Source: Alphaproteobacteria bacterium
GTDB taxonomy: Bacteria > Pseudomonadota > Alphaproteobacteria > JAEULC01
Assembly: GCA_020851015.1 (NCBI GenBank)
Contig: JADZDN010000084.1
Span: 1 to 27,019 of the forward strand
Length of the DNA stretch: 27,019 bases
Reading direction: 5' to 3'
Below, piece after piece: positions 795-18,672 of the stretch. The notes under the pieces are model-generated. The model saw nothing but the letters and a program-made list of their open reading frames with translations, was not told the DNA's origin and ran no database searches. Numbering within the stretch: the stretch's first letter is position 1; the number at the start of each line of letters is the position of its first letter. Made by a program: the position numbers and the translations under genes.

Positions 795-878
795 GTAATT
801 TCCCCGCTGCGTGCCGTGGACGGTGCAGTCGTCCTATGCATCGGCGTGTTGTATGAACCCTCGGGCAGGGGCCGTTCA

Positions 879-892
879 TTGACCTAAATCAA
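879..892. promoter_or_regulatory. FNR/FixK box between ccoN and the TauE-like gene
   Basis: The sequence TTGACCTAAATCAA matches the FNR/FixK consensus TTGAT-N4-ATCAA at nine of ten fixed bases. Its centre is 885.5. On the plus strand a TATATA at 917-922 lies about where the -10 of a class II promoter (box at -41.5) belongs. On the minus strand weak -10 candidates (CATACA at 855-850, TACAAC at 853-848) lie at nearly the same distance towards ccoN. The single box may therefore serve both genes. Confidence 0.85.
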
Positions 893-953
893 GCAGCCCG
901 GCGGCGGGCCGGGCGATATATATCGTGGAGGACCGGCAAGGACATACCAGCGC

Positions 954-1721
954 GTGTGGCAGGAACTTGCGACCCATTGCGGTGCGGCAATCGCCGCACA
1001 TGGCAGCCTGATGCTGGCCCTGTTCTCCGCGGGGCTGGCGGGCGGCGTTTCGCATTGCGCGGGCATGTGCGGACCGTTCGTGCTGGCGCAGGTGGGCGCG
1101 CGCGTCCTTCCCATGAAGACCCCGGCAGCATCGCCCAGCTACGGCGAACTGGCGCGGTTGCGCGGCGCCATGCTCGTTCCCTACCATCTGGGCCGCGCCA
1201 CCAGCTACGCCGCGCTGGGCGCGCTGGCGGCCTTGGTCGCTGGCGGCCTGGCCGCATTCGTGCAGCTGCCTTGGATCGCGGCCGGGCTGCTGCTGGCGAC
1301 CGCGGTCGTGTTTCTGGCGGCAGGCTTGCGCGGGGTCGTGCCCGGGCTTGCGGCGCTTCCCGGCATTGCGCGCGCCGGCGCGGTGCTGCGCGCGGGCGAA
1401 TCACTGGCGCGATTCACGCGGCCGCTATGGACCGCGCCGCTGGGCTGGCGCGGCTATGGGCTTGGCGTGGCGCTGGGCTTCAGTCCGTGCGGGCTGGTCT
1501 ATGGCGCGGTGGCCGCCGCCGGATCGACCGGCAGCCCGACGGCGGCCGCCCTCGGCATGCTGGCTTTCACGGCGGGCACGGCGCCCAGCCTGATCGCGGT
1601 CGGCTGGCTGGGTGCGCTCGCGGCGAATCGGTTCAAGGACCTTGCCCGCTATGTTGCGGTGCCGTTGATGCTGGTCAACGCGGCCGTGCTGGCCCATCTG
1701 GCCTGGCGTCTGGTCCAATAG
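954..1721 (+). CDS. TauE/SafE-family (UreH_2-like) membrane protein
   Basis: A 255-residue polytopic membrane protein. Near residues 33-41 it has the motif SHCAGMCGP, and near 173-185 GFSPCGLVYGA. These paired cysteine motifs mark the UreH_2/DsbD-like transmembrane family, often labelled sulfite exporter TauE/SafE and commonly found beside cbb3 oxidase genes. The Cys-containing helices suggest metal or thiol handling for oxidase maturation, but that is inference from neighbourhood. The start is GTG at 954, with AAGGA at 938-942. The gene is divergent from ccoN across an FNR box, and the predicted class II transcript would have a leader of about 27 bases. Whether it moves copper, reductant or something else cannot be told from sequence. 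Confidence 0.85.
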   Translation: MWQELATHCGAAIAAHGSLMLALFSAGLAGGVSHCAGMCGPFVLAQVGARVLPMKTPAASPSYGELARLRGAMLVPYHLGRATSYAALGALAALVAGGLAAFVQLPWIAAGLLLATAVVFLAAGLRGVVPGLAALPGIARAGAVLRAGESLARFTRPLWTAPLGWRGYGLGVALGFSPCGLVYGAVAAAGSTGSPTAAALGMLAFTAGTAPSLIAVGWLGALAANRFKDLARYVAVPLMLVNAAVLAHLAWRLVQ

Positions 1722-1740
1722 GCGCGCGGCGCATTGCCAA

Positions 1741-1754
1741 TTGATCTGGATCAA
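1741..1754 (+). promoter_or_regulatory. Consensus FNR box with class II promoter
   Basis: TTGATCTGGATCAA is a perfect TTGAT-N4-ATCAA palindrome, centre 1747.5. A TATGAT at 1777-1782 occupies exactly the -12 to -7 position if the box is at -41.5, giving a start site near 1789. This is textbook class II FNR geometry driving the gene at 1801 and probably fnrL and the radical SAM gene behind it. Confidence 0.92.
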
Positions 1755-1800
1755 CGAATAAACCGTTATGCGCGAATATGATTTTGGGCATGAGTCTTGA

Positions 1801-2355
1801 ATGGGATTTCCTGCATTGGTCGAAGAAGCATTGATTGCGCGTCTCCTGGACCGGTCGAAGATCGACCAGGCCTATCCGCTCGTGCGCAGCCTGGTGCCCG
1901 GCATTACGCTCAGCCGGTGGAACGCTTTCGTGCGCCCGCAGCTCATCGTGCATTCCTCCGCTTGGCCGCATGGCGTGATGACCATCCAGAACCACAAGGG
2001 CTACATCCTGGGCTTGTTCAGCTTCGAGGTGCGCGACGACCTTTATGAGAGCCGCACGCTGTGCGTCGACACCATCGTCGTGCCCAATATACCCGGCCGC
2101 GACCTGATCTGGTTCGCCATCGCCGACGCCACCGATCAGCTGGCAAAGATGAACGACTGCCGCGCGGTCCGCGCCGGCCTCAACGAGGAGCTGGGCGGCG
2201 ACGCCCAGGATCGGCTGTGGGTCGGGAGCTCGCTGCAACGCTCGGGCTACGTGCTCGAGGGCGTGCGGGCGTTCAAGCGGTTCGACGGTGATGCGCTGTC
2301 CGCCGTGCCCGGCCGGCCCGGCGGCGCCGACGGCCGCAGCCAGCGCCGCGCCTGA
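1801..2355 (+). CDS. Unknown protein, possible GNAT-fold acetyltransferase
   Basis: A 184-residue soluble protein with no family I can name. The middle (about residues 66-150) runs as a strand GYILGLFSFEV, a strand LCVDTIVVP, a loop PNIPGRD then a helix, a strand RAVRAGL, and a late SGYVLEGVRAFKRF. That order resembles a GNAT N-acetyltransferase, with PGRD where the acetyl-CoA loop would lie, but the glycine-rich Q/R-X-X-G-X-G/A signature is not clean. The last 20 residues are Ala/Gly/Arg-rich and look disordered. ATG 1801 is the first usable start and lies only about 12 bases after the predicted transcription start, so the leader is very short and has no strong ribosome site. It is first in a likely operon with fnrL (28-base gap). 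Confidence 0.8.
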   Translation: MGFPALVEEALIARLLDRSKIDQAYPLVRSLVPGITLSRWNAFVRPQLIVHSSAWPHGVMTIQNHKGYILGLFSFEVRDDLYESRTLCVDTIVVPNIPGRDLIWFAIADATDQLAKMNDCRAVRAGLNEELGGDAQDRLWVGSSLQRSGYVLEGVRAFKRFDGDALSAVPGRPGGADGRSQRRA

Positions 2356-2383
2356 TCCGCCGGACTGGAGAAGGGGTGATGGC

Positions 2384-3127
2384 GTGGCGCGCTTGACCAT
2401 CGCGGCGCAGGCCGAACGGCCGGTACAGACCGAGACGCTGCCCAGCGCCTGCGAAAATTGCGGCGTGCGCGACTTTTCCGCCTGTGCGCCGCTGAACGAC
2501 AGCGAGCTGTGCCGGCTCGGCGCGTTGATGACGACCCTCAACATCGAGCCGCACCAGCCGATCTTCAGCGAAGCCGATGCCGCCGACCACGTGTTCACGC
2601 TGACCGCCGGCGCGGTGAAGATCTACAAGCTTCTGCCCGACGGCCGGCGCCAAATCACGGGCTTCCTGTTCCCCGGCGACTTCCTGGGCCTGACCCACAA
2701 CGCGCTTTACGCCTACAGTGCCGAGGCGATGACGACAACGCGACTGTGCCGCTTCCCGCGCAAGAAGCTGGAGGCGCTGCTGGACGAACTGCCGAAGCTG
2801 GAGCAGCGGCTGCTTGGCATGGCGTCGCACGAGCTGGCGGCCGCGCAGGACCAGATGATGCTCCTGGGGCGCAAGTCGGCCAGGGAGCGCGTGGTGTCGT
2901 TCCTGCTGTTGCTGTCCAACGGCGCGGTGCGGCGCGGCCAGCCCGACAACCCGGTGGCCGTGCCGATGACCCGCAACGACATCGCGGATTTCCTCGGCCT
3001 CACGGTCGAGACGGTCAGCCGGACGATGACGCAGTTGAAAACGCAGAAGCTGATCGAGTTGCTGGACGAGAAGCAGGTCCGCTTGAACCGGATCGAAGCG
3101 CTGCGCGAGATCGCCGGCGGCTTCTAG
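2384..3127 (+). CDS. fnrL: FNR-type oxygen-sensing transcription regulator (FnrL)
   Basis: A Crp/Fnr-family regulator of 247 residues. From the chosen start the cysteines fall at 23, 26 and 34 (C-X2-C-X7-C), and a fourth lies at 122 (TTTRLCRF), the ligand set expected for an oxygen-labile [4Fe-4S] cluster. A cyclic-nucleotide-binding-like beta roll fills about residues 45-150, then a long dimer helix, then a winged helix. Its recognition helix carries E209, S212 and R213 (ETVSR), the residues that read TTGAT half-sites in E. coli FNR, with the same numbering. GTG 2384 is preferred over the upstream ATG 2288, which overlaps the previous gene, because GGAGAAGGGG lies just before it and the numbering then matches FNR. 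It probably activates the eight boxes in this window and, through 1741-1754, itself. Confidence 0.93.
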   Translation: MARLTIAAQAERPVQTETLPSACENCGVRDFSACAPLNDSELCRLGALMTTLNIEPHQPIFSEADAADHVFTLTAGAVKIYKLLPDGRRQITGFLFPGDFLGLTHNALYAYSAEAMTTTRLCRFPRKKLEALLDELPKLEQRLLGMASHELAAAQDQMMLLGRKSARERVVSFLLLLSNGAVRRGQPDNPVAVPMTRNDIADFLGLTVETVSRTMTQLKTQKLIELLDEKQVRLNRIEALREIAGGF

Positions 3128-3163
3128 GAGCCGGCACGGCGGTCGGAGAGGGACGGGACAGCG

Positions 3164-4282
3164 ATGGATTGCGGAGACGCGCTGCGCCGGCTTCCGGCGC
3201 CCGAGCCGGCGGCCGGTATCGCCGCCTACGAGCGCGAGCGCGAACTGGCGCTGGCGCGCTCGCCGGCGTGCCGGGCGAACTACGAGCGTTATTTGGCGGG
3301 GCGCCGGCGCGCGGCGGCGGTCGACTACCTGCCGATCAAGCTCGACATCGAAAACACCAGCCGCTGCAACGTCCGCTGCACGATGTGCGTCGTCAGCTCG
3401 TGGGCCAAGGGGAAACGGGCGGACGACCTGCCGCTGGCGGCCTTCAAGCGTCTGATCGACGAGCAGGTGGGGCTGCTGGAGATCAAGCTGCAGGGCATCG
3501 GCGAGCCGACGCTGCAGCGCGACGACTATTTCGCGATGATCCGCTACGCGCGGCAGAAGCACATCTGGGTGCGCACGACCACCAATGGCTCGTTGCTGCA
3601 TCTCAACGACAATGCCCGCAAGCTGATCGAGTCCGACGTCAACGAGCTGCAGATCTCGATCGACGGGGCGTCGCGCGCGGTCTACGAGGCGATCCGGCGC
3701 GGCGGAGTCTTCGACCGCGTCATGAAGAACGTCCGCGCCGTCAACGACTGCCAGCGCCGGGCCGGCGTCGAGCGCACCAAGATGTGGACGGTGGTCCAGA
3801 AGGGCAACATCCACGAACTGGAGGCGCTGGTCGACCTGGCGGCGGAATTGGGTTTCACCAACCAGGTGTTTTCGCTGGAGCTGTCGGACTGGGGCATCGC
3901 GGAGTGGCACGACCGCAACGCGGCCGCGGCCGTCGAGGCGGAGCTCGAGATCAGCCGCCTGGCGGCGCTGGTCGAACGCGGCGAGCGCCTGGGCGTGCGG
4001 GTGCGTTTCTGGAACGTCACCCAGAAATACGGCTTCGATTCACCGGATAGCTTGTGCCCGTGGCCGTTCGAGCGCGCCTATGTCTCCTCCGACCTGCGCG
4101 TCGTGCCCTGCTGCTTCATCGGCAACCCCGACGTCGCGGAGATCGGCTCGGGGCTTGGCGGCGGCGCCGGTTTCGAGGGGGTGTGGAAGGGCGACGAGTT
4201 CCGTAGGTTCCGGCAGGCGCACCTGGATGGCACGCCGCCGGACTATTGCCGGAACTGCTATCGCAGCGGCGCGGCTTCCTGA
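3164..4282 (+). CDS. Radical SAM/SPASM-domain protein
   Basis: A 372-residue radical S-adenosylmethionine enzyme. The cluster motif CNVRCTMC (C68, C72, C75) follows a strand KLDIENTSR, and a GIGEPTL segment after it resembles the SAM-binding GGE motif. The C-terminal third has a SPASM-like cysteine set (LCPWPF, VVPCCFIG, then CRNC near the end) expected to hold auxiliary Fe-S clusters. SPASM proteins mature peptides, cofactors or enzymes. No precursor-peptide gene is evident nearby, so the substrate is unknown. It starts 36 bases after fnrL and probably shares its transcript, consistent with an oxygen-sensitive enzyme made at low oxygen. It converges on the CBS-BON gene with a 23-base gap. 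The N-terminal 55 residues are Arg/Ala-rich and not recognised. Confidence 0.88.
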   Translation: MDCGDALRRLPAPEPAAGIAAYERERELALARSPACRANYERYLAGRRRAAAVDYLPIKLDIENTSRCNVRCTMCVVSSWAKGKRADDLPLAAFKRLIDEQVGLLEIKLQGIGEPTLQRDDYFAMIRYARQKHIWVRTTTNGSLLHLNDNARKLIESDVNELQISIDGASRAVYEAIRRGGVFDRVMKNVRAVNDCQRRAGVERTKMWTVVQKGNIHELEALVDLAAELGFTNQVFSLELSDWGIAEWHDRNAAAAVEAELEISRLAALVERGERLGVRVRFWNVTQKYGFDSPDSLCPWPFERAYVSSDLRVVPCCFIGNPDVAEIGSGLGGGAGFEGVWKGDEFRRFRQAHLDGTPPDYCRNCYRSGAAS

Positions 4283-4305
4283 TCCTGCCTCCGCCGCGCC
4301 GTCGC

Positions 4306-5001
4306 TCAGACCAGGATGGCCGGCGGCACGTAATAGACCATGTGGTCCTGCAGCCCGCGCACGCCGGCAATCCGCTCGACCAGGACGTGGATCGCGCTGC
4401 GCTCGCCGGCGGTGAACACCGTGCCCCACAGATGCACGACGCCGTTATGCACCACCACGTTGGCGGTGCTGCCCGGGGCCCAGCGCTGCTTGCGCAGCTC
4501 GGCCATCACCCTGGCCCGGATCGCGGCGTCGTCGGGCGTGGAGTCCGGCACCACCAGCCGCGGCAGGCTGGCGATGGCCTGGACCAGATTCGCGCGGCTG
4601 ACGATGCCGACGACGGAAGACCCCCGCATGACCGGGACGCGCTTGATGTGCTTGGTCTCGAGGATCTCGGCGATCTCCGACAGCGAGGCGGATTCGACGA
4701 CCGTCACCGCGCCGGGGGTCATCACGTCGCGCACGTGCAGGCCGAATGCCTTGACGTATTCCTTGGCGCGGGTCTCGTAGCCGGTCACGAACTCCAGCCA
4801 CCAGGACCGCTTCTTCTCGGTATGGGTCTCCTCGCGGTGCAGCAGGTCGCCTTCGCTCACCATGCCGACGAGCTTGCCGTTCGTCTCGACGACCGGCAGC
4901 GCGCTGACGCGGTGCTTGACCATGAGCTCGGCCGCGTGCTGGACCGTGTCGGCGGGAGCGACCGAGACGACGGCGGCTGTCATGATGTCGGAAGCCTTCA
5001 T
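4306..5001 (-). CDS. CBS-pair and BON-domain protein
   Basis: A 231-residue soluble protein. Two CBS domains (about residues 1-60 and 95-150; KASDIMTAAVVSVAPADTV and VRDVMTPGAVTVVESASL) form a likely nucleotide-sensing Bateman module. A C-terminal BON domain (about 165-225; NVVVHNGVVHLWGTV) follows. Proteins of this architecture are common in alphaproteobacterial stress and microaerobic gene sets; the ligand is not known. ATG 5001 is chosen over the longer frame to 5097 because AGGAG precedes it and the CBS domain begins right at MKASDIM. The longer form would translate through the FNR box at 5084-5097. Its position downstream of that box suggests induction at low oxygen. Confidence 0.9.
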   Translation of the reverse strand: MKASDIMTAAVVSVAPADTVQHAAELMVKHRVSALPVVETNGKLVGMVSEGDLLHREETHTEKKRSWWLEFVTGYETRAKEYVKAFGLHVRDVMTPGAVTVVESASLSEIAEILETKHIKRVPVMRGSSVVGIVSRANLVQAIASLPRLVVPDSTPDDAAIRARVMAELRKQRWAPGSTANVVVHNGVVHLWGTVFTAGERSAIHVLVERIAGVRGLQDHMVYYVPPAILV

Positions 5002-5083
5002 TGGCGGAACTCCTGCAAAGCGATCCGCTGGGACCGGATTGATGACGTTGTCGAGAACGTTAGAGGCTGGAAGGGGGCCTGCA

Positions 5084-5097
5084 TTGAGCCAGATCAA
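5084..5097 (-). promoter_or_regulatory. FNR/FixK box upstream of the CBS-BON gene
   Basis: TTGAGCCAGATCAA has one off-consensus base in the left half. On the minus strand TCTAAC at 5064-5059 is the best -10, which would put the box centre near -38.5, slightly short of the ideal -41.5. On the plus strand a class II start would fall inside the chaB start codon, so the site more likely serves the CBS-BON gene. Confidence 0.75.
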
Positions 5098-5129
5098 GCA
5101 CTACCGGGCTGGGCGGGACTGAAAAATCC

Positions 5130-5339
5130 ATGCCTTACCGGGATCGCGACGACCTGCCCGCGACGCTGCGACAGCGCCTGCCGCCGCATGCACAGGACAT
5201 CTACTGCCAGGCGTTCAACCACGCCTGGGTCGCCTATGGCGACCGCCCGGACCGCGAGGCGATCGCGCACCGCGTGGCCTGGGCGGCGGTCAAGCGCGGC
5301 TATCGCCGGGAGGGCGAGGTCTGGGTGCCGCGGGATTGA
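5130..5339 (+). CDS. chaB: ChaB family protein
   Basis: A 69-residue protein matching the ChaB family almost end to end: MPY at the start, LP near residue 9, LPPHAQDIYCQAFNHAW in the middle and the conserved HRVAWAAVKRGY near the end. ChaB is named for a gene beside the E. coli cation antiporter chaA, but its molecular role is not settled. Here there is no ChaA neighbour. ATG 5130 is the only good start; the ribosome site is weak. It is divergent from the CBS-BON gene, and the gene behind it on the other strand ends six bases after its stop. How it is transcribed is unclear, since the FNR box at 5084-5097 is too close to act as a class II activator site. Confidence 0.92.
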   Translation: MPYRDRDDLPATLRQRLPPHAQDIYCQAFNHAWVAYGDRPDREAIAHRVAWAAVKRGYRREGEVWVPRD

Positions 5340-5345
5340 GCCTGG

Positions 5346-6449
5346 TCACCGCAGCCGCCGGAACATCAGGGCCGCCGCGGCCAGGGTGACCGCGGCGATC
5401 GGCAGGAGGGGCCAGAGCTGCTGGAGCGCGAGGGCGGGCGGCAGATCCTGCAGGAACAGGCCGCGCAGCACGGCCATCGCGTAGCGGACCGGGTTGACGT
5501 AGGTCAGCCATTGCACCGCGTCGGGCATGTTGGCGATCGGCGTCGCGAAGCCGGAAAGGATCACGGCTGGCACCAGCGCCAGCATGGCGCCCAGCATCGC
5601 CTGCTGCTGGGTCTGCGACACCGCCGATATCATCAGCCCGATGCCGATCACCGCCATGACGAAGAGCACCAGCGCCAGATAGAACAGGGCCAGGCTGCCG
5701 CGGAACGGCACGCCGAACCACAGCATCGCCGCGGCCAGAATGACCGATGCCTCGATGAGCCCGATCAGCAGCGCGGGCAGCGCCTTGCCGAGCAGGATCT
5801 CGAACGGGCGGAGCGGCGTGACGAGAAGCTGGTCGAACGTGCCAAGCTCGCGCTCGCGCGCGACCGACAGGCAGGTGACCAGCACCGCGGCGATCAGGGT
5901 CAGGGTTGCCACCAGCCCGGGCAGGATGAACCACTGGCTTTCCAGCACGGGATTGAACCACGCCCGCTCGACCAGGGTGGCGCGCTGCGTGCGTCCGCTC
6001 GCGGCGGCCAGCTCGGCGCTGAAGCCGTCGGCGATGGCGTTGACGTAGCCCAGCACGGCCTGCGCCGTGTTCGAATGTCGCCCGTCCAGCAGCACTTGCA
6101 CTGGGGCGGCACGGCCCGCCTTGATGTCGGCCGTGAAGGTCTGGCCGATATGCAGCACCATCGCCACGCGCTGACGGTCCAGCAGGTCGCGCGCCGCCGC
6201 GGCCGCGTCGACCGTGGCCGCCAGGCGGAAGCCGGGCGAGCCGGCGAAGCGGGCGGCGAATTCGCGCGCCATCTGGCCGCGGTCCTCGTCCCAGAGCGCG
6301 TAGCGGACGCGATCGACGTTGTAGGTGGCGGCATAGGCGAACAGCGCGAGCTGGATGATCGGCGGAACGATCAGCACGAGGCGCGAGCGGCGGTCGCGCC
6401 AGATCGCCAGCAATTCCTTCAGCACCAGCGCCGCGATCCGCGCCCACAT
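5346..6449 (-). CDS. ybhR: ABC-2 type exporter permease (YbhR-like)
   Basis: A 367-residue inner-membrane permease: one N-terminal membrane segment after KELLAIWRDRRSRLVLIV, a large periplasmic domain (about residues 45-170), then five hydrophobic segments with the ABC-2 signature SVARERELGTFDQLLVTPLRP between the first two. The start ATG at 6449 lies four bases after the stop of the preceding permease, so the two are cotranscribed. The size and order (membrane-fusion protein, double ATPase, permease, permease) match E. coli YbhG-F-S-R (about 332, 578, 377 and 368 residues). E. coli YbhFSR has been linked to drug and Na+/Li+ export. The substrate here is unknown. The symbol is given by architecture, not by proven orthology. 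Confidence 0.88.
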   Translation of the reverse strand: MWARIAALVLKELLAIWRDRRSRLVLIVPPIIQLALFAYAATYNVDRVRYALWDEDRGQMAREFAARFAGSPGFRLAATVDAAAAARDLLDRQRVAMVLHIGQTFTADIKAGRAAPVQVLLDGRHSNTAQAVLGYVNAIADGFSAELAAASGRTQRATLVERAWFNPVLESQWFILPGLVATLTLIAAVLVTCLSVARERELGTFDQLLVTPLRPFEILLGKALPALLIGLIEASVILAAAMLWFGVPFRGSLALFYLALVLFVMAVIGIGLMISAVSQTQQQAMLGAMLALVPAVILSGFATPIANMPDAVQWLTYVNPVRYAMAVLRGLFLQDLPPALALQQLWPLLPIAAVTLAAAALMFRRLR

Positions 6450-6453
6450 CGCG

Positions 6454-7581
6454 CTAGTCCAGCCGCCGGCGCGTGCGCAGCCCGGTGAGCGTCAAGAACA
6501 GCACCGCGAAGCCGGCCATGCCCGCCATGTTGGGCAGCAGTACGCCCCACACGTCGCCCGCCAGGAACAGCGTCTGCAGGCAGGCGACGAAATAGCGGGC
6601 GGGAATCACCTGGGTCACCCACTGCACGACGGTCGGCATCGAGTCGATGTCGAAGATGAAGCCCGACAGCATGAAGGCGGGCATGTAGGAAGCGACGATC
6701 GCGATCTGGCCGGCGACGAACTGGTTGCGCGCGGCGGTCGAGATCAGCAGCCCCAGCCCGAGCGCGCCGAGGAGGAACAGCGAGGTCGCCAGCAGCAGCG
6801 CGCCGATGGAACCGCGCAAGGGGACATGGAACAGGAACAGCCCCATCAGCACCGAGACCGCCATGCCGCCCAGGCCCAGCACGAAATAGACCGCCATGCG
6901 GCTCAAGGTCAGCTCGGCCATGCTGGCCGGCGTCACCATCATCGCCTCCATCGTGCCCCGCTCCCATTCGCGCGCCACCACCAGCGCCGTCAGCATGGCG
7001 CCGATCAGCGTCATGACGATGGCGATCACGCCAGGCACCAGGAAGTTGGTGCTGCGCAGTTCCGGGTTGAACCAGACGCGCGGCTCGATCACGACGCCGG
7101 CATCGCCCGTCTCGCCGCGCCGGCGCAGGTCCTGCTGCAGCCAGGTCGCCGCCGCACCGCGGGCATAGGCGCCGACGAAGCGCGCGGTGTTGGCGTCGGT
7201 GCCGTTGACGATCACCTGGGCCTGGGCGGCGCCGCCGCCGCGCCAGGAGCGCGTGGCATCGCCCCGCAGCACCACGATGCCGTCGACCTCGCCGGCGGTG
7301 AGCGCGGCTTCGGCCGCGTGCACGTCGGTCATCGCCACCGGCCGGATATAGGGCGAATTGGCGAAGGATTCGAACAGGCTGCGCGTGTCCCCGGTGATGT
7401 TCTCCATCACCACCACGACGGGCAGGTGGCGCACGTCCAGCGACACGCCATAGCCGAACAGCAGGAGCAATATCAGCGGCATCACGAAGGCGATGGCGAT
7501 GCTGGACGGGTCGCGCACGACCTGCAGCGTCTCCTTGCGCATCAAGGCCGCGACGCGCCGCGCGGCGGCCCGCGCCGTCAT
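6454..7581 (-). CDS. ybhS: ABC-2 type exporter permease (YbhS-like)
   Basis: A 375-residue permease with the same plan as its neighbour: an N-terminal RKETLQVVRDPSSIAIAFVM segment leading into the first membrane span, a periplasmic domain to about residue 180, then five further spans containing VVAREWERGTMEAMMVTP. ATG 7581 overlaps the ATPase stop in an ATGA, indicating translational coupling. The two permeases are paralogues and presumably form a heterodimeric channel. A much longer frame upstream is simply the ATPase gene read out of phase. Confidence 0.9.
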   Translation of the reverse strand: MTARAAARRVAALMRKETLQVVRDPSSIAIAFVMPLILLLLFGYGVSLDVRHLPVVVVMENITGDTRSLFESFANSPYIRPVAMTDVHAAEAALTAGEVDGIVVLRGDATRSWRGGGAAQAQVIVNGTDANTARFVGAYARGAAATWLQQDLRRRGETGDAGVVIEPRVWFNPELRSTNFLVPGVIAIVMTLIGAMLTALVVAREWERGTMEAMMVTPASMAELTLSRMAVYFVLGLGGMAVSVLMGLFLFHVPLRGSIGALLLATSLFLLGALGLGLLISTAARNQFVAGQIAIVASYMPAFMLSGFIFDIDSMPTVVQWVTQVIPARYFVACLQTLFLAGDVWGVLLPNMAGMAGFAVLFLTLTGLRTRRRLD

Positions 7582-10390: not shown

Positions 10391-10445
10391 CGGCGAATTC
10401 CCGTATAGGGCGGCGGGGCCGCCCGAGACGCGGCGGCCCCGAAGC

Positions 10446-11303
10446 TCAATGTACCATGAGCACCGGGATCGTCGCGCCGCGCAGCATGTTCTCGGTCACG
10501 CCGCCGAACACCCACTCGCGCAGCCGGCTGTGGCCGTAGGCGCCCATCACGAGCAGCCCGGCGCCCGCCTCGCCAGCGGCGGTCAGCAGCATCTGCGCGG
10601 TGTTGCGCGATTGCGCATCCAGATGCCGGTGTTCCACTGCCGCATATAGGCGGCGCAGGGTGACAACAAGCCGCTCGGTATCGATCGCGGCCTCCTGGCC
10701 TCCTTCGCGGGCGGTAAGGACGACCACGCGCTTCGCCTTCGCCAGGAACGGCGCCGCCGCCCCGATCGCGCGGGCCGATTCCCGGCTCGATTTCCAGGCG
10801 ACGGCGATCGTTTCGATCGCCAGCGCGCCCTCCGTCGGCAGCAGGACCGGCCGGCCGGAATCGAACAGCGCCGCTTCCAGGGCGATCCGTTCCTCGGCGC
10901 CGAAGCGGGCAGGGCGTCCGAGGACCGTCAGGTCGGAACTGCGGGCGAAACGGGGAATCCACTCATTCTCGCGGCCCTCCTTGGCATGCCAGCCCGCCGT
11001 CACGCCACCCGTGCCGGCCCGCTCCGCCCCCAGCGCGAGCTTGGCGCCGTCGGCGAAGCGCTGGACCAGGGCGCGTGCAGCCACCTGCTGCGCGGCGGCT
11101 TCCTCCTCGAGCCGGTCCATCAGACCGGCGGAGAGGCCGACGCCGCCCTCGACCGCCAGGTTCGCCGCCATCTCGCCCGGGCTCGGCCGGACATAGAGAA
11201 AGTCGATGTGACCGCCGAAACGCGCCGCCACGTCCAGCGCGCCCTTGAAGACCGCGCTGTCGGTGTCGTTGCCGGTCACGGGAACGAGGATCGTTTTCGG
11301 CAT
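10446..11303 (-). CDS. Tandem universal stress protein (two UspA domains)
   Basis: A 285-residue protein with two UspA folds (about residues 1-150 and 155-285). The first begins KTILVPVTGNDTD and has no clear nucleotide-binding loop. The second ends LLVMGAYGHSRLREWVFGGVT, which fits the G-X2-G-X9-G ATP-binding pattern. ATG 11303 has GGAG nine bases upstream. FNR-controlled tandem UspA proteins are known from Pseudomonas and other microaerobic regulons, where they aid survival without oxygen; a similar role is inferred here. It has a paralogue at 16408-17244 whose final domain is closely similar (GAYGHSRLRE, FGGV, then PVLM). It is the first gene of the exporter operon. Confidence 0.93.
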   Translation of the reverse strand: MPKTILVPVTGNDTDSAVFKGALDVAARFGGHIDFLYVRPSPGEMAANLAVEGGVGLSAGLMDRLEEEAAAQQVAARALVQRFADGAKLALGAERAGTGGVTAGWHAKEGRENEWIPRFARSSDLTVLGRPARFGAEERIALEAALFDSGRPVLLPTEGALAIETIAVAWKSSRESARAIGAAAPFLAKAKRVVVLTAREGGQEAAIDTERLVVTLRRLYAAVEHRHLDAQSRNTAQMLLTAAGEAGAGLLVMGAYGHSRLREWVFGGVTENMLRGATIPVLMVH

Positions 11304-11397
11304 GATCGGTTACTCCGTCGGGCAAAAGCGCCAGCATGCGTACGGCAGGTTGGGACAATAACGTTGGCCCAGTAGAACCCGACTTGCCAAGCGGGCA

Positions 11398-11411
11398 TTG
11401 ACGTGGATCAA
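11398..11411 (-). promoter_or_regulatory. FNR/FixK box, proximal to the stress-protein/exporter operon
   Basis: TTGACGTGGATCAA, centre 11404.5. On the minus strand TCTACT at 11376-11371 sits about where a class II -10 belongs, giving a start near 11364 and a 60-base leader to the stress protein gene. It is paired with a second box exactly 35 bp away at 11433-11446. Confidence 0.88.
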
Positions 11412-11432
11412 GCAGGCCGGAGCGCCGCAGGC

Positions 11433-11446
11433 ATGATTTGGATCAA
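11433..11446. promoter_or_regulatory. Second FNR/FixK box, 35 bp from the first
   Basis: ATGATTTGGATCAA, one base from consensus, centre 11439.5. It would be at about -76.5 for the minus-strand stress protein promoter. For the plus-strand gene at 11561 the nearest -10-like sequence is TAGATA at 11477-11482, which places the box near -49.5. That is not a classical distance, so its effect on that gene is uncertain. Confidence 0.75.
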
Positions 11447-11560
11447 TGCCGCTTTGCCTCGGGCCCGGAGACTGGATAGATACGGTGGACGGCCTGGATG
11501 GAAAGCCCCGCCATCGCGGCCGGCAGGTGTTCCAGGGGAACCGACAAGGAGTGATGCGCC

Positions 11561-11923
11561 GTGGCGCTGCGTAAGATCCGTCTGGAGTTGGCCCGCTGCC
11601 CCGAGTTCCCAGAGGGCAGCGCCGGGCATGGCTATGAATTCGTGGCGCCGCTGGACAGCGCGGGCAACTTCGACGCCGCCGAATGGCGCAAGGCGCGCGC
11701 GAAATGCACCGTGCGGCGGTTCTGGGGCAAGGACCCCGCCGAATCCGGGGTGCTGGTCCATACCGGCAAGGGCCGCTGGGCCTTCTCCTATGTTCCCAAT
11801 GAGACCGACGACGACGAGCCGATCTTCCAGTTCGACCGCCACGTCTTCCGCCAGGGCGAATACGTGTCGATCACTGAGCATGACGGGGTGCAGCGGCCGT
11901 TCCGGATCGCCACGGTCGGCTGA
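11561..11923 (+). CDS. Conserved-looking small protein of unknown function
   Basis: A 120-residue soluble protein, not recognised. It is rich in aromatic and charged residues with alternating beta-like stretches (KIRLELARCPEF, GYEFVAPLD, VRRFWGKDP, RWAFSYVP, YVSITEHDG, PFRIATV), so an all-beta fold is likely. It has two cysteines (13 and 49), spaced unlike a redox or zinc motif. GTG 11561 is supported by AAGGAG about ten bases upstream. Coding character is strong and the frame is free of upstream extension. It lies divergent from the FNR-controlled stress protein, across two FNR boxes, so it may belong to the same regulon. No function is assigned. Confidence 0.8.
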   Translation: MALRKIRLELARCPEFPEGSAGHGYEFVAPLDSAGNFDAAEWRKARAKCTVRRFWGKDPAESGVLVHTGKGRWAFSYVPNETDDDEPIFQFDRHVFRQGEYVSITEHDGVQRPFRIATVG

Positions 11924-11938
11924 GCGCGGGTCGCCGGG

Positions 11939-12763
11939 TCAGGCGCCCGGGCGCACCGGCGGCCGGGGCCGGGTCGGCAGGTATTCGACCGTGGGCGAGT
12001 TGCGCACGGGCTGCGGATAGAGCGCCATCAGTTCCAGCACGTCCTCGGGCATGTCGGTATTGACCGTCAAACCAAGATGCCCCGCCTCGATCGGGGTGAT
12101 CGGGTAGTCGTGCGTCCAGCGCCCGCTGGTGAGAATGGTGGCGATCTCCTCGGCCTTTTCCTTCGCCATGTCGTCGGCCAGCAGTTCGACGCAGGCCCGG
12201 CGCACCTGCTCGGTCGCCTTGCGGCCGATATCGGCCAGGATCAGCGTCTCGTCGTCGATCTCGCCGATCGGTTTCTGCTCCACGACCTTCAGCAGCGAGG
12301 CCGCCGGGAAGTTCTTGATCTGCGGGTCGATCGGGCCCAGGACCGAATGCGGGCACAGCACGATCTGGTCGGCGGCCAGCGCCACCAGCGTGCCGCCGGA
12401 CATCGCCATGTGCGGCACGAAGACCGTCACCTTGGCCGGATGGTTGTTGATGGCGCGCGCGATCTGCAGCGCGGCGAGCACCAGTCCGCCAGGCGTGTGC
12501 AGGATCAGGTCCAGCGGCTGATCGGGAGAGGTCATGTGGATCGCCCGGATCACCTCCTCGGAATCGTCCATGTCGATGTAGCGCATCAGCGGGAAGCCAA
12601 GCAGGCTCATGGTTTCCTGCCGGTGCACCAGGGTGATGACGCGGCTGCCGCGGACGGACTGGATCTGGGCGATCTTGCGCTGGCGCAGCGCGATCAGCAC
12701 GCGCTGGCGCATCATCGGCCAGAATGCCATCGCAAGGAATATCAGCCAGAAGAATTCGCTCAC
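11939..12763 (-). CDS. ClpP-class membrane serine protease (SDH/SppA-like)
   Basis: A 274-residue protein of the serine dehydrogenase proteinase family (ClpP/crotonase fold). An N-terminal membrane segment (about residues 3-17, FFWLIFLAMAFWPMM) is followed by a basic stretch, then the ClpP-like core: DLILHTPGGLVLAALQIARAI supplies the oxyanion-loop glycines, and HMAMSGGTLVALAAD carries the likely nucleophile Ser. The later VLGPIDPQI is also typical. It probably acts at the cytoplasmic face of the membrane; targets are unknown. ATG 12763 lies 57 bases after the CBS gene stop on the same strand, so the two are likely cotranscribed from the FNR-boxed promoter upstream of the CBS gene. The last 20 residues are Pro/Arg-rich. 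Confidence 0.9.
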   Translation of the reverse strand: MSEFFWLIFLAMAFWPMMRQRVLIALRQRKIAQIQSVRGSRVITLVHRQETMSLLGFPLMRYIDMDDSEEVIRAIHMTSPDQPLDLILHTPGGLVLAALQIARAINNHPAKVTVFVPHMAMSGGTLVALAADQIVLCPHSVLGPIDPQIKNFPAASLLKVVEQKPIGEIDDETLILADIGRKATEQVRRACVELLADDMAKEKAEEIATILTSGRWTHDYPITPIEAGHLGLTVNTDMPEDVLELMALYPQPVRNSPTVEYLPTRPRPPVRPGA

Positions 12764-12820
12764 GAGTCCCCCTGCCGTGGCTGGGTGCCGGCGCGGCGTC
12801 GGGCAGCAGCGCCTAAGCGG

Positions 12821-13249
12821 CTACCATATACGCTCCCACAACCCGGTCTCCTCGTCGAGTTGGGCTTGTTCGAGGCCACGGAAATCGCCGCGCGAGACGA
12901 TGCCGATCACATGCTTGCCGTTGCCGACGATCGGCACGTGGCGGAAGCCGCCGTCCTGCATCAGCCGCAGCGCGTCCACGGCCGTGCTGCCCTTGGCCAT
13001 CGCGGCCGGGTTGGCAGTCATGACGTCCGCCAGCTTCGTCTTGGCCGGATCCTTGCTTTCCGCCAGCACGCGGCCGACGGCGTCGCGGCCGGTGAAGATG
13101 CCGACCAGGCGATCCTCGCCCTCGACCACCAGCACCGCGCCGCAGCGATGGTCGCGCATCAGCTTGCATGCTTCCTTCACCGACGCGCCGGACGCAAGCT
13201 TCACCGGCTTCTGGTTGCGGACCAGGTCGCCGACATGCCGTTGAGTCAT
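12821..13249 (-). CDS. Two-CBS-domain protein
   Basis: A 142-residue protein made only of a CBS pair (about residues 5-65 and 75-132; HVGDLVRNQKPVKLASGASV and KLADVMTANPAAMAKGSTAV). Such stand-alone Bateman modules bind adenine nucleotides or regulate partners; no partner is fused here. ATG 13249 has AGGGA close upstream. An FNR box at 13336-13349 with a correctly spaced -10 marks it as a low-oxygen gene. The ClpP-class protease gene follows. It is distinct from the CBS-BON protein at 4306-5001, which has longer spacing between repeats. Confidence 0.92.
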   Translation of the reverse strand: MTQRHVGDLVRNQKPVKLASGASVKEACKLMRDHRCGAVLVVEGEDRLVGIFTGRDAVGRVLAESKDPAKTKLADVMTANPAAMAKGSTAVDALRLMQDGGFRHVPIVGNGKHVIGIVSRGDFRGLEQAQLDEETGLWERIW

Positions 13250-13335
13250 GATCTGTCCCTTTTCTCAAGGAGGCGCTGGCGATGTCGCGCCGCGCAAGAA
13301 CCGAATCCTAATACGCAGGACAGGATGCGGCGACA

Positions 13336-13349
13336 TTGACATGCGTCAA
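13336..13349 (-). promoter_or_regulatory. FNR/FixK box upstream of the CBS-pair gene
   Basis: TTGACATGCGTCAA is a perfect inverted repeat (TTGAC/GTCAA), centre 13342.5. TATTAG at 13313-13308 on the minus strand is exactly at the class II -10 position, with a start site near 13301 and a leader of about 50 bases. Confidence 0.85.
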
Positions 13350-13355
13350 CCGCGG

Positions 13356-14369
13356 TCAAGGCGGCAACGCAAACGCGGCCAGCACCGGCGCGTGGAACGA
13401 ACCGAACCGGCGAGCTCCCGCCGGGGCATCGAGCACCTCGTCCGGAAGGCCCTGGTTGAACACCTCGGCGCGACGGCAGAGGCCCGCCAGGCCGCGGGAC
13501 ACCAGGATATGGTCGAGCATGACCGGTTCGCCGGCGTGGACGACGGAATAGCGGCGTTCCCGCGGCAGGCTCTGCTCCAGTGCCGTCATGGCGCGGGCCG
13601 CCACGGCAGGATTGCCGGTGTCGTCGGCGCTGCCCAGGATGATGCGCGCCGGCACTTCGCGGTGGTCGGCGTTGAAATCGCCGCATACCGCGATCAGGGC
13701 GTCCGGCTCGGCGTCGAACAGCCCATCGATGAACAGGCGCGCCTCCAGGGCCTGGCCGTTCCGTTTCAGCGCCGCGAGGTAGTACCCCTCGGCCCAGCCG
13801 GCGACGCTTTTCCAGACGAACGCGGACAGCTTCTGGCCTGGAATGGTGGCCGCCAGCGGCGCTTTCAGGTGAAGGTTGACGACGTGCAGGCTGCGTCCCG
13901 CCGGCAGCGCGAGGGCCGCATACTGGATCGGCCGGTCGAAGCGCGCCTCGATCCGGTCCTGGCCGCCGGTGACCGCGACCGTCAGCGGGGGCACCAGTTC
14001 GTGCCAGATCTGGCGGGACGCCGCGACCGTGTATCGTGACAGCACCACCAGGTTGTGGCGGTCGGCCGGCCCGACCCCGCCGGAACTCGTCATCGCTACG
14101 CGATGGAAGGCGGCATAGGGCGTCCCGGCCAAGAGCCGGTCGAGCGCGCCCAGCACGCGCTTCTCGTGCGGGCGCGTCTCCTCGGCATCGACCTCCTGCA
14201 GGCAGAGGATGTCGGCGTCGAGCCGCGCGAGATGCTCGCGCAGGACATCGACACGCATCTCCAGCGGCGCCTCCGCGCCGGTCCGCAGTCCGAGGCTTTC
14301 GACATTGAAGGTGGCGATACGGAATCCGGCGCCAGGCCGAACGCTCGGCGGTGCCGCGGTGCCGCTCAT
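13356..14369 (-). CDS. Endonuclease/exonuclease/phosphatase-fold protein
   Basis: A 337-residue protein of the EEP superfamily (DNase I, AP endonuclease and phosphodiesterase relatives). Motifs in order are FRIATFNVESLG (metal Asn), ILCLQEVDAEE (metal Glu), LHVVNLHLKAP, ALIAVCGDFNAD (catalytic Asp/Asn) and VMLDHILVS. The terminal SDH motif of the family is here SFH (residues 324-326): the His is kept but the usual Asp is Phe. Members of this fold cleave nucleic acids, lipids or small phosphodiesters, and the substrate cannot be assigned. ATG 14369 lies six bases after the phaC stop, so it is cotranscribed with phaC, an unusual partnership. No signal peptide is seen. Confidence 0.87.
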   Translation of the reverse strand: MSGTAAPPSVRPGAGFRIATFNVESLGLRTGAEAPLEMRVDVLREHLARLDADILCLQEVDAEETRPHEKRVLGALDRLLAGTPYAAFHRVAMTSSGGVGPADRHNLVVLSRYTVAASRQIWHELVPPLTVAVTGGQDRIEARFDRPIQYAALALPAGRSLHVVNLHLKAPLAATIPGQKLSAFVWKSVAGWAEGYYLAALKRNGQALEARLFIDGLFDAEPDALIAVCGDFNADHREVPARIILGSADDTGNPAVAARAMTALEQSLPRERRYSVVHAGEPVMLDHILVSRGLAGLCRRAEVFNQGLPDEVLDAPAGARRFGSFHAPVLAAFALPP

Positions 14370-14375
14370 CGGCCG

Positions 14376-16235
14376 CTAGCGGGCAAGAACGTAGCTGCCC
14401 GGCGCGTCTGCCAGCGGCGGGAAGCCGGCTTCGGCCGCGCCCATGGCGGGCAGGGGGCCAGGATCGCCCGACCATGCCTCCAGCCACGCGCCCCAGGCCG
14501 GCCACCACGATCCGTCATGCTGCTTGGCATGGTTGAACCAGGTATCGGGATCGACGTGGTAGTCGCCATGCGCGATGGTGCCGATGCGGTACTGGCGCTG
14601 CGGTCCGGCCCCGTTCGCCTGCGGTTCGCTGACGATGCCGGCATTGTGCCCGCCGCTGGCCAGCACGAAGGTGACGTCCGACTGGGTCAGCCAGTTGATC
14701 TTGTAGACCGACCGCCACGGCGCGATGTGGTCCCGCGTGGTCGATACCGCGAAGATCGGCACCTTGATGTCCGCCAGCGATACCAGCTCGCCGCGCGCCT
14801 GGAAGCGACCCTCCGCCAGGTCGTTCTCGAGGAACAGCTTCTGCAGGTATTCCGCGTGCATGTGGTAGGGCATCCGGGTGGCATCGGCGTTCCAGGCCAT
14901 CAGGTCCGTCATCGGCGTGCGCTCGCCCAAGAGGTATTCGCGGACCATGCTGGACCAGATGAGGTCCTGCGACCGCAGGAGCTGGAACGCGCCCGACATC
15001 TGGTGCGTGTCGAGGAACCCCTGGTCCCACATCATGTCCTCGAGCCATGCGACCTGGCTCTGGTTGATGAACAGCATCAGCTCGCCGGCCTCGGTGAAAT
15101 CGGTCTGCGCGGCGAACAGCGTCACCGACTTGAGCACGTCGTCGCCGGCGCGCGCCAGCTTGGCGGCGGCGATCGCGAGCAGCGTGCCGCCCAGGCAGTA
15201 GCCGGCCGCATGCACCTTGGGCGCGCCGGGCACGATCGCGCGCACGGCCTCCAGCGCCTTCAAGGGGCCGAACTCCAAGTAGTCGTCCATCGACAGGTCG
15301 CGGTCGGTGGCAGTCGGGTTCTTCCACGAAACCATGAACACGGTATGGCCGCGGTCGACCAGGTAGCGCACCAGGCTGTTGGCCGGCGAGAGATCGAGGA
15401 TGTAGTACTTCATGATCCAGGCCGGAACGATCAGCACCGGCTCGGGGCGCGCCGTGGTCGTCATCGGCGAATACTGGATCAGTTCGATCAGCCGGTTGCG
15501 GTAGACGACCTTGCCCGGCGTGATCGCCACGTCGCGGCCGACCTGGAAGGCGTCGGCGCCGACGGGCGGCCGGCCCAGCAGCACGCGCTCGGCGTCTTCG
15601 ATCCAGTTCTGGCAGCCGCGCCACAGGTTCTGCCCGGCCTGTTCCGCCGTCACCCGCAGAACCTCGGGATTGGTGGGCAGGAAATTCGCCGGCGACAGCG
15701 CGTCGAGGATCTGGCGCATGGCGAAATGCACGACCTCGGCATGGCGCGGATCGACGCCGCGGATGTCGGTGGTGGCGTTGTGCCACCATTGCTGGGTGAA
15801 CAGGAAGCCCTGCCAGATCAGCGGGAAGGGTTGGCGCTGCCAGTCCGCGCCCAGGAAGCGCCGGTCGCCCGGCAGCGGCTCGATCGCCGGGGCCGCCGCG
15901 CTGTCGACGCGCGCCCGGTTGATGTAGTCGAGGTAGCGCAGCCATTTGCGCATCGCCTTGCGCAGCAGCTCGGCCTGCTTGCCGGGCGCGTTCGCCAGGT
16001 GGATGCCCCAGTCGGAGAATGCCTGCTGCAGCGCCGCCGGCGACAGGCCGCCGGTGAACTGCGCTTGCCAGGCGTGGACCAGTCGGTCGATCGGAAATCC
16101 GTGCGCGTCGACTTCCTCGTCCGCGGGCGGGGCTGGCGGCACCGTGGCGAGGACGGGCGCCGCCCGTGGGCGCCGCGCCGGGGTGGCGACGGCCGCCGTC
16201 TTCGACCTGCGCCGAGCGGGCAAATGGGTCGCCAT
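14376..16235 (-). CDS. phaC: Poly(3-hydroxyalkanoate) synthase (PhaC)
   Basis: A 619-residue PHA polymerase that links 3-hydroxyacyl-CoA units into storage granules. The alpha/beta-hydrolase core has the modified lipase box GYCLGG with nucleophile Cys347. The other triad members are Asp502 (STTRDHIAPW) and His530 (SGGHNAGIV). The N-terminal domain includes QQWWHNATTDIRGV and KVVYRNRLIELIQYSP, both typical of single-subunit (class I) PhaC. The first 40 residues are Ala/Pro/Arg-rich. ATG 16235 has GAGG upstream; GTG 16241 is an in-frame alternative. No PhaA, PhaB, phasin or PhaR gene is adjacent. Its promoter region carries two FNR boxes, suggesting polymer synthesis is used as an electron sink at low oxygen, an inference consistent with known PHB physiology. 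Confidence 0.95.
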   Translation of the reverse strand: MATHLPARRRSKTAAVATPARRPRAAPVLATVPPAPPADEEVDAHGFPIDRLVHAWQAQFTGGLSPAALQQAFSDWGIHLANAPGKQAELLRKAMRKWLRYLDYINRARVDSAAAPAIEPLPGDRRFLGADWQRQPFPLIWQGFLFTQQWWHNATTDIRGVDPRHAEVVHFAMRQILDALSPANFLPTNPEVLRVTAEQAGQNLWRGCQNWIEDAERVLLGRPPVGADAFQVGRDVAITPGKVVYRNRLIELIQYSPMTTTARPEPVLIVPAWIMKYYILDLSPANSLVRYLVDRGHTVFMVSWKNPTATDRDLSMDDYLEFGPLKALEAVRAIVPGAPKVHAAGYCLGGTLLAIAAAKLARAGDDVLKSVTLFAAQTDFTEAGELMLFINQSQVAWLEDMMWDQGFLDTHQMSGAFQLLRSQDLIWSSMVREYLLGERTPMTDLMAWNADATRMPYHMHAEYLQKLFLENDLAEGRFQARGELVSLADIKVPIFAVSTTRDHIAPWRSVYKINWLTQSDVTFVLASGGHNAGIVSEPQANGAGPQRQYRIGTIAHGDYHVDPDTWFNHAKQHDGSWWPAWGAWLEAWSGDPGPLPAMGAAEAGFPPLADAPGSYVLAR

Positions 16236-16289
16236 GGCCACCTCGTCTTCCGTCCTTTTCCTGTGTATGGTCCATGCTGCCCTGGCGCG

Positions 16290-16303
16290 TTGACCTGAAT
16301 CAA
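16290..16303. promoter_or_regulatory. FNR/FixK box nearest phaC
   Basis: TTGACCTGAATCAA, centre 16296.5. For phaC on the minus strand a class II start would fall near 16255, and the only -10 candidates (CATACA 16269-16264, TACACA 16267-16262) are weak. For the plus-strand stress protein it would be the distal site near -76.5, exactly 35 bp from the proximal box. Confidence 0.85.
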
Positions 16304-16324
16304 CGGTAACCGGGTGCCCGGCGG

Positions 16325-16338
16325 TTGATCTGGGTCAA
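16325..16338 (+). promoter_or_regulatory. FNR/FixK box nearest the second stress protein
   Basis: TTGATCTGGGTCAA, centre 16331.5. TGAAAT at 16360-16365 is close to the class II -10 position, giving a start near 16372 and a leader of about 35 bases before the stress protein gene. Confidence 0.85.
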
Positions 16339-16407
16339 GGCGCCCGGTCGACCTTGCGGTGAAATGCGCCGGATCAGTCGTCAACGGAGAATATCGTCGG
16401 AGGCCCG

Positions 16408-17244: not shown

Positions 17245-17267
17245 GCCGCGACGGCGGCTCGAGAAGC

Positions 17268-17717: not shown

Positions 17718-17738
17718 TGCGGCGCGCCCGTACCGCGG

Positions 17739-18458: not shown

Positions 18459-18567
18459 CTCAAGCCCCTCTTTCGTCTGGCGAACGTTGACGTTGACGAG
18501 AGGCTAGGCGGCGAATGTCACGGCTTGATGCCCGCGCGGCCGGGCTGTGTGCTCATGTGTGTCGTTG

Positions 18568-18586
18568 TGTGACAGCCTGTGACAGC
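18568..18586. repeat. 9-bp direct repeat upstream of the fixK-type gene
   Basis: TGTGACAGC occurs at 18568-18576 and again at 18578-18586, one helical turn (10 bp) apart, 110-128 bases upstream of the fixK-type start codon. In-phase direct repeats are typical of response-regulator operators, but I cannot name the protein. Confidence 0.5.
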
Positions 18587-18619
18587 GCCGCGGCGCCGGA
18601 GGCTTGTCAACAACTTGAT

Positions 18620-18634: not shown

Positions 18635-18672
18635 GCTTGGTGGCTTTCTTCTTGCGGCAAGCGGCGCGGCAA

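Follow-up and report, generated by a model that had tools for sequence, protein, structure and literature searches.

The window analysed here is the whole stretch of 27,019 bases (69.3% G+C) of contig JADZDN010000084.1, from an alphaproteobacterial genome assembly. Its positions 879-16338, referred to below as the island, hold FNR/FixK boxes in the gaps between genes encoding, among others, the regulator FnrL, universal stress proteins (USPs), CBS proteins, an exporter and a polyhydroxyalkanoate (PHA) synthase homologue, and this stretch is very probably a chromosomal hub of a low-oxygen FNR/FixK regulon. An exact core was defined as TTGA-N6-TCAA and a stringent box as TTGAY-N4-RTCAA. Gene assignment relied on open frames, on G+C at third positions and on matches to Pfam/NCBIfam.

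At the left end, the minus strand carries the 5' part of ccoN (1-779), which encodes subunit I of a cbb3 oxidase and runs off the window (TIGR00780, E = 5.3e-115, first half of the model). Box TTGACCTAAATCAA (879-892), whose eight core letters are all kept in the nearest relative, separates ccoN from the gene of a DsbD_2 membrane protein (954-1721, plus strand; PF13386, 9.1e-34), for which we take TauE-SafE-like to be a second name. This gene contains an exact-core site, TTGATGCTGGTCAA (1665-1678), that agrees with TTGAT-N4-ATCAA at 9 of 10 bases. The next exact-core box, TTGATCTGGATCAA (1741-1754), has the hexamer TATGAT 22 nt downstream and faces three genes of the plus strand: orf184 (1801-2355), an unnamed family of 184 amino acids without Pfam or NCBIfam match that is linked to CRP/FNR genes and ccoN; fnrL (2384-3127; PF00027, PF13545), encoding a CRP/FNR regulator with cysteines 23, 26, 34 and 122; and the gene of a radical SAM/SPASM protein with many homologues and no assigned substrate (3164-4282; PF04055, 1e-18; PF13186, 2.7e-07). 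A CBS-CBS-BON protein (4306-5001, minus strand; PF00571, 3.7e-30; PF04972, 1.9e-13) and a ChaB-family protein (5130-5339, plus strand; PF06150, 2.9e-20) follow, with the exact-core box TTGAGCCAGATCAA (5084-5097) between their genes. On the minus strand, four genes (5346-10390) encode two ABC-2 permeases, a double-ABC ATPase and an HlyD-type protein (PF12698 twice, PF00005 in two stretches, PF16576), an exporter layout to which we presume the name YbhGFSR applies.

Universal stress protein 1 (usp1, 10446-11303, minus strand; PF00582 in two stretches, 7.6e-21) is separated from orf120 (11561-11923, plus strand), an unnamed family of 120 amino acids without Pfam or NCBIfam match, by two boxes: the exact-core TTGACGTGGATCAA (11398-11411) on the usp1 side and the variant ATGATTTGGATCAA (11433-11446), with one core letter changed (ATGA), on the orf120 side. 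The minus strand then encodes an SDH-family Clp-fold (ClpP-like) serine proteinase (11939-12763; PF01972, 1.7e-111), which passes NCBIfam model NF047768 (402.6 bits for a cut-off of 250), and a CBS-pair protein (12821-13249; PF00571, 4.4e-23). Box TTGACATGCGTCAA (13336-13349, exact core) has TATTAG 22 nt downstream, toward this CBS gene. An endonuclease/exonuclease/phosphatase family protein (13356-14369; PF03372, 1.3e-16) and the PHA synthase homologue (14376-16235; PF07167, 1e-56) are also encoded on the minus strand. The latter has the PhaC fold with a cysteine nucleophile motif, GYCLGG at residue 345. Its gene is called here a PhaC homologue, with no class given, because its score for the class I model TIGR01838 (536.5 bits) is under the cut-off (622.65). 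The last gap of the island holds two exact-core boxes, TTGACCTGAATCAA (16290-16303) on the phaC side and TTGATCTGGGTCAA (16325-16338) on the side of universal stress protein 2 (usp2, 16408-17244, plus strand; PF00582 in two stretches, 3.5e-19), the latter with TGAAAT 21 nt downstream. Just beyond lie, on the minus strand, the genes of a single-domain response regulator (17268-17717; PF00072, 2.6e-14) and, adjoining it, of a FixK-like CRP/FNR regulator without N-terminal cysteines (17739-18458; best PDB relative FixK2, 4i2o, 1.2e-35), 1.4 kb past the island end. The first-pass annotation of this DNA had named the cbb3, radical SAM, CBS, ClpP-class protease, exporter, PHA synthase and two USP genes, in agreement with Pfam and NCBIfam; ChaB (5130-5339) and the open reading frames at 1801-2355 and 11561-11923 were missing from its account.

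The same annotation had listed eight 14-mers (879, 1741, 5084, 11398, 11433, 13336, 16290 and 16325), and each has indeed at most two mismatches to TTGAT-N4-ATCAA. With this tolerance, we found 15 matches in the window, compared with a mean of 2.31 and a maximum of 6 in shuffled sequences. Among the listed sites, seven out of eight have an exact core, the eighth (11433) reading ATGA. The seven additional matches lie within genes (1665, 1975, 3083, 3473, 3593 and 15064) or in an unassigned stretch (24469). The exact cores in the window are eight (879, 1665, 1741, 5084, 11398, 13336, 16290 and 16325), all in the first 16.4 kb, while 0.07 (order-1 Markov) or 0.17 (order-3 Markov) would be expected by chance; the simulations, 400 and 200 in number, reached a maximum of 2. 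According to the gene map, intergenic DNA makes up 7.5% of positions 1-18700, and 7 of the 8 exact cores lie in it. The eight listed sites do occupy six intergenic gaps, as had been counted, and all are intergenic; this holds for the selected list only, because site 1665, with its exact core, sits inside the DsbD_2/TauE-like gene.

Then, we considered the spacing between boxes and possible -10 elements in ten gene-facing orientations (both directions at 879 and 5084, a single direction at 1741, 11398, 11433, 13336, 16290 and 16325). In 4 of the 10, a hexamer that agrees with TATAAT at four or more positions starts at base 21-24 past the box, a feature shared by 6.3% of background intergenic positions. 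The clearest are TATGAT after box 1741, toward orf184-fnrL-radical SAM, and TATTAG after box 13336, toward the CBS-protease pair; the former reads TATCAT in the nearest relative. Both TATGAT (1741) and TATTAG (13336) fit the spacing rule of class II FNR promoters.

Both regulator types that recognise such boxes are encoded here. FnrL has the four ligand-type cysteines of its CRP/FNR group, Cys 23, 26 and 34 (CX2CX7C) and Cys 122, while the FixK-like protein, with only Cys 108 and Cys 238, lacks one or more of the four; the first-pass annotation had reported an Fe-S FnrL and a FixK without cluster. The recognition helix VETVSR is common to both. FnrL scores 177 bits with NCBIfam NF045989 and the FixK-like protein 162 bits with NF050806, each for a cut-off of 300, and because both scores are under the cut-offs, "FnrL" and "FixK" are used here as group names according to the cysteine rule (PMC2908626; here and below, published work is cited from excerpts). 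Compared with proteins of known structure, the FixK-like protein reaches 126.7 bits with FixK2 (4i2o) and 75.3 bits with DNR. Among the Rhodospirillales, Rhodobacterales and Sphingomonadales sampled in a published survey, the excerpt reports the Fe-S type only (PMC4999443).

To compare the island with other genomes, contigs were scanned with the SDH protease as query, which gave 17 loci. One of them (L012) belongs to the metagenome-assembled genome (MAG) SJ314, with a protease 95% identical to that of the window, which suggests that the host of the window is an uncultured alphaproteobacterium. In this nearest relative, the island genes are the same and collinear with the window. Only the 5' part of ccoN lies in the window; it is 94% identical to ccoN of MAG SJ314, where ccoN, FixO and FixP are consecutive and in order. 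MAG SJ314 has in addition the genes of a NorB-type nitric oxide (NO) reductase and of SirB between the response regulator and usp2 (L046:16066-18798), both of which the window lacks. In the alignment of the six gaps, 72 out of 72 core letters of nine boxes (including 1665 and 11433) are identical, compared with 591 out of 871 other letters; at this background, the core conservation has a P of about 2e-11 for the 64 letters without site 1665. All 14 letters of box 11433 are identical, and site 1665 is kept, as is its coding surrounding. TTGA-N6-TCAA boxes lie upstream of genes and are conserved in a relative.

The density of boxes was measured in the whole MAG SJ314 genome (5.6 Mb), which contains 61 exact cores (14 for the reversed-motif control) and 39 stringent boxes (3 for the control). 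The island, with 15.4 kb or 0.28% of this genome, holds 8 of the 61 exact and 7 of the 39 stringent boxes. The corresponding Poisson P values are about 1e-11 (exact) and 3e-11 (stringent), or about 1e-9 after multiplication by the number of sites, and are somewhat generous, since the interval is set by its own outer sites. A similar density everywhere had been named in the first-pass annotation as the result that would speak against an island. The density in MAG SJ314 is not alike everywhere, because 8 of 61 exact and 7 of 39 stringent boxes crowd into 15.4 kb. According to the full stringent list, the island is the densest box group of this genome, yet not the whole programme: 32 of the 39 stringent boxes are found outside it and comprise, by frame calls, 17 intergenic ones, 8 at the edge of a gene and 7 within genes. 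The idea that the island is self-contained is therefore not maintained, some of the intergenic boxes being beside CRP/FNR, Hsp20 and CBS-BON genes. Ten genes selected beside intergenic boxes include those of two CRP/FNR regulators, Hsp20, CBS-BON, metallo-beta-lactamase-fold, HlyD and PEP-CTERM proteins; one of the remaining three has a sub-threshold match only and two are without family.

Three observations concern these other boxes of MAG SJ314. Two further CRP/FNR-family genes (L150 and L156) each adjoin the identical box TTGATTCAGGTCAA, hinting at a regulator cascade. On contig 8 (L140), four stringent sites occur in 14.6 kb, with two palindrome letterings in alternation, a pattern that suggests a repeat more than a set of promoters. 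On contig 121 (L064), three stringent sites lie in 12 kb; the second separates divergent genes for an E1 dehydrogenase and a phosphoribosyl-pyrophosphate-synthetase-like protein, with a nicotinate phosphoribosyltransferase gene downstream of the latter.

Three other relatives, G002, G003 and G004, contain 67, 21 and 15 stringent boxes, respectively. G004, which is more distant than MAG SJ314, has a rearranged island on one contig of 36.5 kb, with seven exact boxes that represent 7 of the 15 stringent boxes of its genome. The genes of this contig encode ChaB, USP2 (61% identity), a cation P-type ATPase, PHA synthase (74%), CBS-BON and CBS proteins, an ADP-forming acyl-CoA-synthetase-like protein with a GNAT domain, orf184 (48%), orf120 (72%), a sensor kinase, FixK (62%), response regulators and an MFS transporter. 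In G002, a pair of SDH protease and PHA synthase genes is preceded by a box at about 85 bp. Three named plasmids were examined among the 8 listed of 222 records found with PhaC. Plasmid pShin-04 of Shinella sp. HZN7 carries a PhaC homologue, three USPs and three exact boxes. In pPAN2 of Paracoccus pantotrophus, a box precedes the PhaC homologue by about 140 bp, and the two boxes of Methylocella tundrae p1 both lie away from PhaC.

The main new leads are the unnamed families orf184 and orf120, which are often beside FNR boxes. As distances to both were counted from the start of the tblastn match and not from the start codon, the following values refer to the match. Within the sampled genomes of the class, orf184 is present in 18 of 240, with 19 genes (loci L167-L185) and no match on plasmids. 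An exact box occurs at most 350 bp upstream in 15 of the 19 genes (14 of 18 without MAG SJ314; 0 of 19 for the control). Within about 1.5 kb, 14 of the 19 genes have a CRP/FNR gene, 4 have ccoN and 17 have either. Neither a profile search against PDB (a ZntA fragment at E = 0.011, a zinc ATPase at 1.2) nor a Pfam scan of 17 members with E up to 1 (one match, DUF3721, at 0.2) gave a result that we believe. The family orf120 has 2446 homologues and is present in 46 of the 240 sampled genomes. Its 48 regions (loci L093-L139 and L052, i.e. 47 places and G003; a few are short) have an exact box at most 300 bp upstream in 14 cases (12 of 46 when the two island genomes are left out), and 29 regions have one at up to about 1.5 kb to either side; the reversed motif gave 0 of 48 and 1, respectively. 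Of the 48 regions (up to about 10 kb), 31 hold a USP match, 8 a CRP/FNR gene, 5 a CBS gene and 2 phaC. The orf120 profile found nothing credible in PDB (E = 0.54), and in a Pfam scan of 26 members with E up to 1 we do not believe the matches either (CDC48_2 in 11 of 26, best E = 0.016, and three single weak matches). It is possible, if rather doubtful, that orf184 and orf120 are dedicated new members of the alphaproteobacterial low-oxygen regulon and that orf184 works directly with FnrL in a feedback of the island, conceivably as a modulator or sensor partner for instance.

We then compared the island with known low-oxygen clusters. In the soybean-nodule bacterium Bradyrhizobium diazoefficiens, the USP gene bll6069, phaC2 (bll6073) and the CBS gene blr6074 are microoxia-induced and given as direct FixK2 targets. 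Genes with nearby numbers, namely bll6060 for a CRP/FNR protein and others for ABC/Mla and GNAT proteins, are also induced, and are not listed as direct targets in the excerpt (PMC6515984). The box given for phaC2 is the reverse complement of the one given for blr6074 (PMC9104804), so the two genes presumably have one common box. PhaC2 itself is assumed not to be an active synthase (PMC10888616). The units fixJ-bll2758-fixK2 and blr2761-blr2762-fixNOQP were cloned on single fragments, according to a plasmid table (PMC9104804). Together with blr4635-blr4655 and bll6060-blr6074, these FixK2 clusters resemble the island by their USP, CBS, phaC2, ABC transporter, CRP/FNR regulator, response regulator and cbb3 oxidase genes, GNAT being also present; they differ in that the genes are spread over separate clusters and that the transporter is of MCE/Mla type instead of YbhGFSR-like (PMC6515984, PMC9104804, PMC10888616). 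In Rhodobacter sphaeroides, FnrL sites are reported for ccoN, uspA, fnrL and phbC, and the ATGA-type box of ccoN resembles box 11433 of the window. Its cbb3 oxidase, USP and fnrL genes (ccoNOQP-uspA-fnrL) are consecutively numbered with FnrL sites. This cluster is smaller, however, phbC is a separate target, and the excerpted FnrL table has no CBS, protease, exporter or FixK gene (PMC2908626).

The lxa locus of Burkholderia cenocepacia, tied to anoxic persistence, is likewise a compact low-oxygen cluster with USPs (six), but has 50 genes and is betaproteobacterial (PMC6127331, PMC9104464, PMC3759415). The likeness to the DosR regulon of Mycobacterium tuberculosis is an analogy only. Its regulator class and motif differ from those of FNR/FixK. 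The DosR regulon, which serves survival under hypoxia, counts 48 genes, 10 of them for USPs (PMC6127331). Plasmid pShin-04 shares with the island a PHA synthase homologue, USPs and boxes, and also has GNAT and P-type ATPase genes; it differs by argF, phosphoketolase and acetate kinase genes and by having no oxidase, FnrL or protease gene in the 21.7 kb examined. According to a definition worded for this analysis, the grouping of USP, CBS and PHA genes with oxidase or regulator genes and FNR/FixK sites, the island belongs with these systems. The first-pass view that its genes are not usually seen as one system is not supported, because USP, PHA synthase, CBS, cbb3 and regulator genes are documented in the excerpts, with combinations that vary, as grouped FixK2/FnrL targets; other genomes also have a similar set accompanied by boxes. 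For the SDH protease and the YbhGFSR-like exporter, the excerpts on FixK2, FnrL and lxa clusters showed no precedent. The island is thus ordinary in kind and unusually compact in layout, with some new candidate members.

The window contains both regulator types and a real, conserved concentration of boxes. From these features, we infer binding, activation at low oxygen, operon structure, promoter class and a physiological purpose of the island as follows. When oxygen falls, FnrL would regain its [4Fe-4S] cluster and dimerise. The dimer would bind the TTGA-N6-TCAA palindromes of the six gaps, with class II spacing at some of them at least, and would recruit RNA polymerase. The cluster-less FixK, which would recognise the same motif, may also use these sites after being synthesised or activated in a different way. 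The genes co-induced in this way would comprise the cbb3 oxidase, for respiration at low oxygen, and a putative orf184-fnrL-radical SAM operon, for regulator feedback; the USP, CBS, ChaB and protease functions, for stress and energy sensing; a putative USP-YbhGFSR exporter operon; and the PHA synthase, for carbon and reductant storage.

Several points weigh against this low-oxygen hub. The box density was that of a relative and not of the genome of the window itself, and the site lists give positions for all 39 stringent and only 50 of the 61 exact sites. The exact box at 1665 is intragenic, probably a coding coincidence. In 6 of the 10 gene-facing orientations, only a three-match hexamer was found, and the promoter evidence is weak for these six because about 30% of background positions (832 of 2806) reach at least three matches. 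No exact box lies upstream of fixK, which also argues against a self-contained programme, and no fixLJ was among the genes assigned in the window, where only the single receiver-domain protein stands beside fixK. In other genomes, no box was found upstream of orf184 of G004, an exact box within 1.5 kb is absent in 19 of the 48 orf120 regions, Azospirillum brasilense has orf120 and a USP with no exact box in 24 kb, and two loci with the radical SAM gene (L062 and L063) have none in the 20 kb examined.

Alternatively, the boxes could be real and the island a mere sum of ordinary single FNR targets that became neighbours by chance, without any selection for their grouping. Taken singly, several gene types of the island are known as FNR/FixK targets, according to the excerpt of PMC2908626, and most relatives examined have only fragments of the island. 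We consider this explanation unlikely in view of the share of exact boxes found in 0.28% of the MAG SJ314 genome, of the G004 island, which has another gene order and 7 of the 15 stringent boxes, and of comparable clusters in Bradyrhizobium (from excerpts) and on the Shinella plasmid.

The boxes could also serve another member of the superfamily, for example of DNR/NO type, the island then answering nitric oxide or nitrosative stress rather than oxygen. The FNR, FixK and DNR motifs are virtually identical (PMC2908626, excerpt), the MAG SJ314 island includes the NorB-type NO reductase and SirB genes, and two further CRP/FNR genes of that genome adjoin boxes. The window has no NO reductase, however, and its regulators are a four-cysteine FnrL and a protein nearer to FixK2 than to DNR. 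Moreover, cbb3 oxidase and USP genes are core FNR targets, one USP being also under DNR (PMC2908626, excerpt). A role in the NO response instead of the oxygen response is therefore unlikely. Finally, chance palindromes or a composition effect, which could be suspected from exact cores inside genes (1665, and 7 of the 32 stringent sites outside the MAG SJ314 island), are rejected by the Markov expectation (0.07-0.17 per window), the intergenic bias and the conservation of core letters in MAG SJ314.

As a low-oxygen hub, the island would unite the stress functions of the Bradyrhizobium FixK2 type (those of lxa by analogy) in a single compact locus that is subject to reshuffling and carries both types of regulator; the alphaproteobacterial lineage concerned is represented here by MAGs alone. 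The SDH-type protease, the YbhGFSR-like exporter and ChaB are added as candidate regulon targets, and since orf184 and orf120 stand beside FNR boxes, their putative role in low-oxygen adaptation is directly testable in cultivable relatives.

To the right of the island (18673-26359), the genes of a molybdopterin oxidoreductase, a 2-hydroxyacid dehydrogenase, an HpcH/HpaI aldolase, a DsbD-N protein and an AhpC/TSA protein have no exact box among them; the gene map gives no assignment for 21896-22480 and 23285-24768. No sign of a mobile island was found in the window, i.e. no tRNA, no Rfam family at gathering score and no transposase among the Pfam matches. Two genes were tried as island markers and rejected. 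The radical SAM gene was found in 4 of 59 genomes (including MAG SJ314) at E = 1e-20, and among its 943 homologues, the 120 listed have generic names or none. The SDH protease fails as a marker, 16 of its 17 loci being without the island. Beyond the protease, these 16 loci (some of them short) show no USP match, which serves as a rough control for the USP counts, and weak double-ABC matches in three; an exact box lies 181 bases (L011) and 26 bases (L017) before the match. On a Ciceribacter plasmid typed as conjugative (L067), a relative of the SDH protease is found among Hsp20, FtsH, a rhomboid protease and TrxC, a context unlike that of the window.

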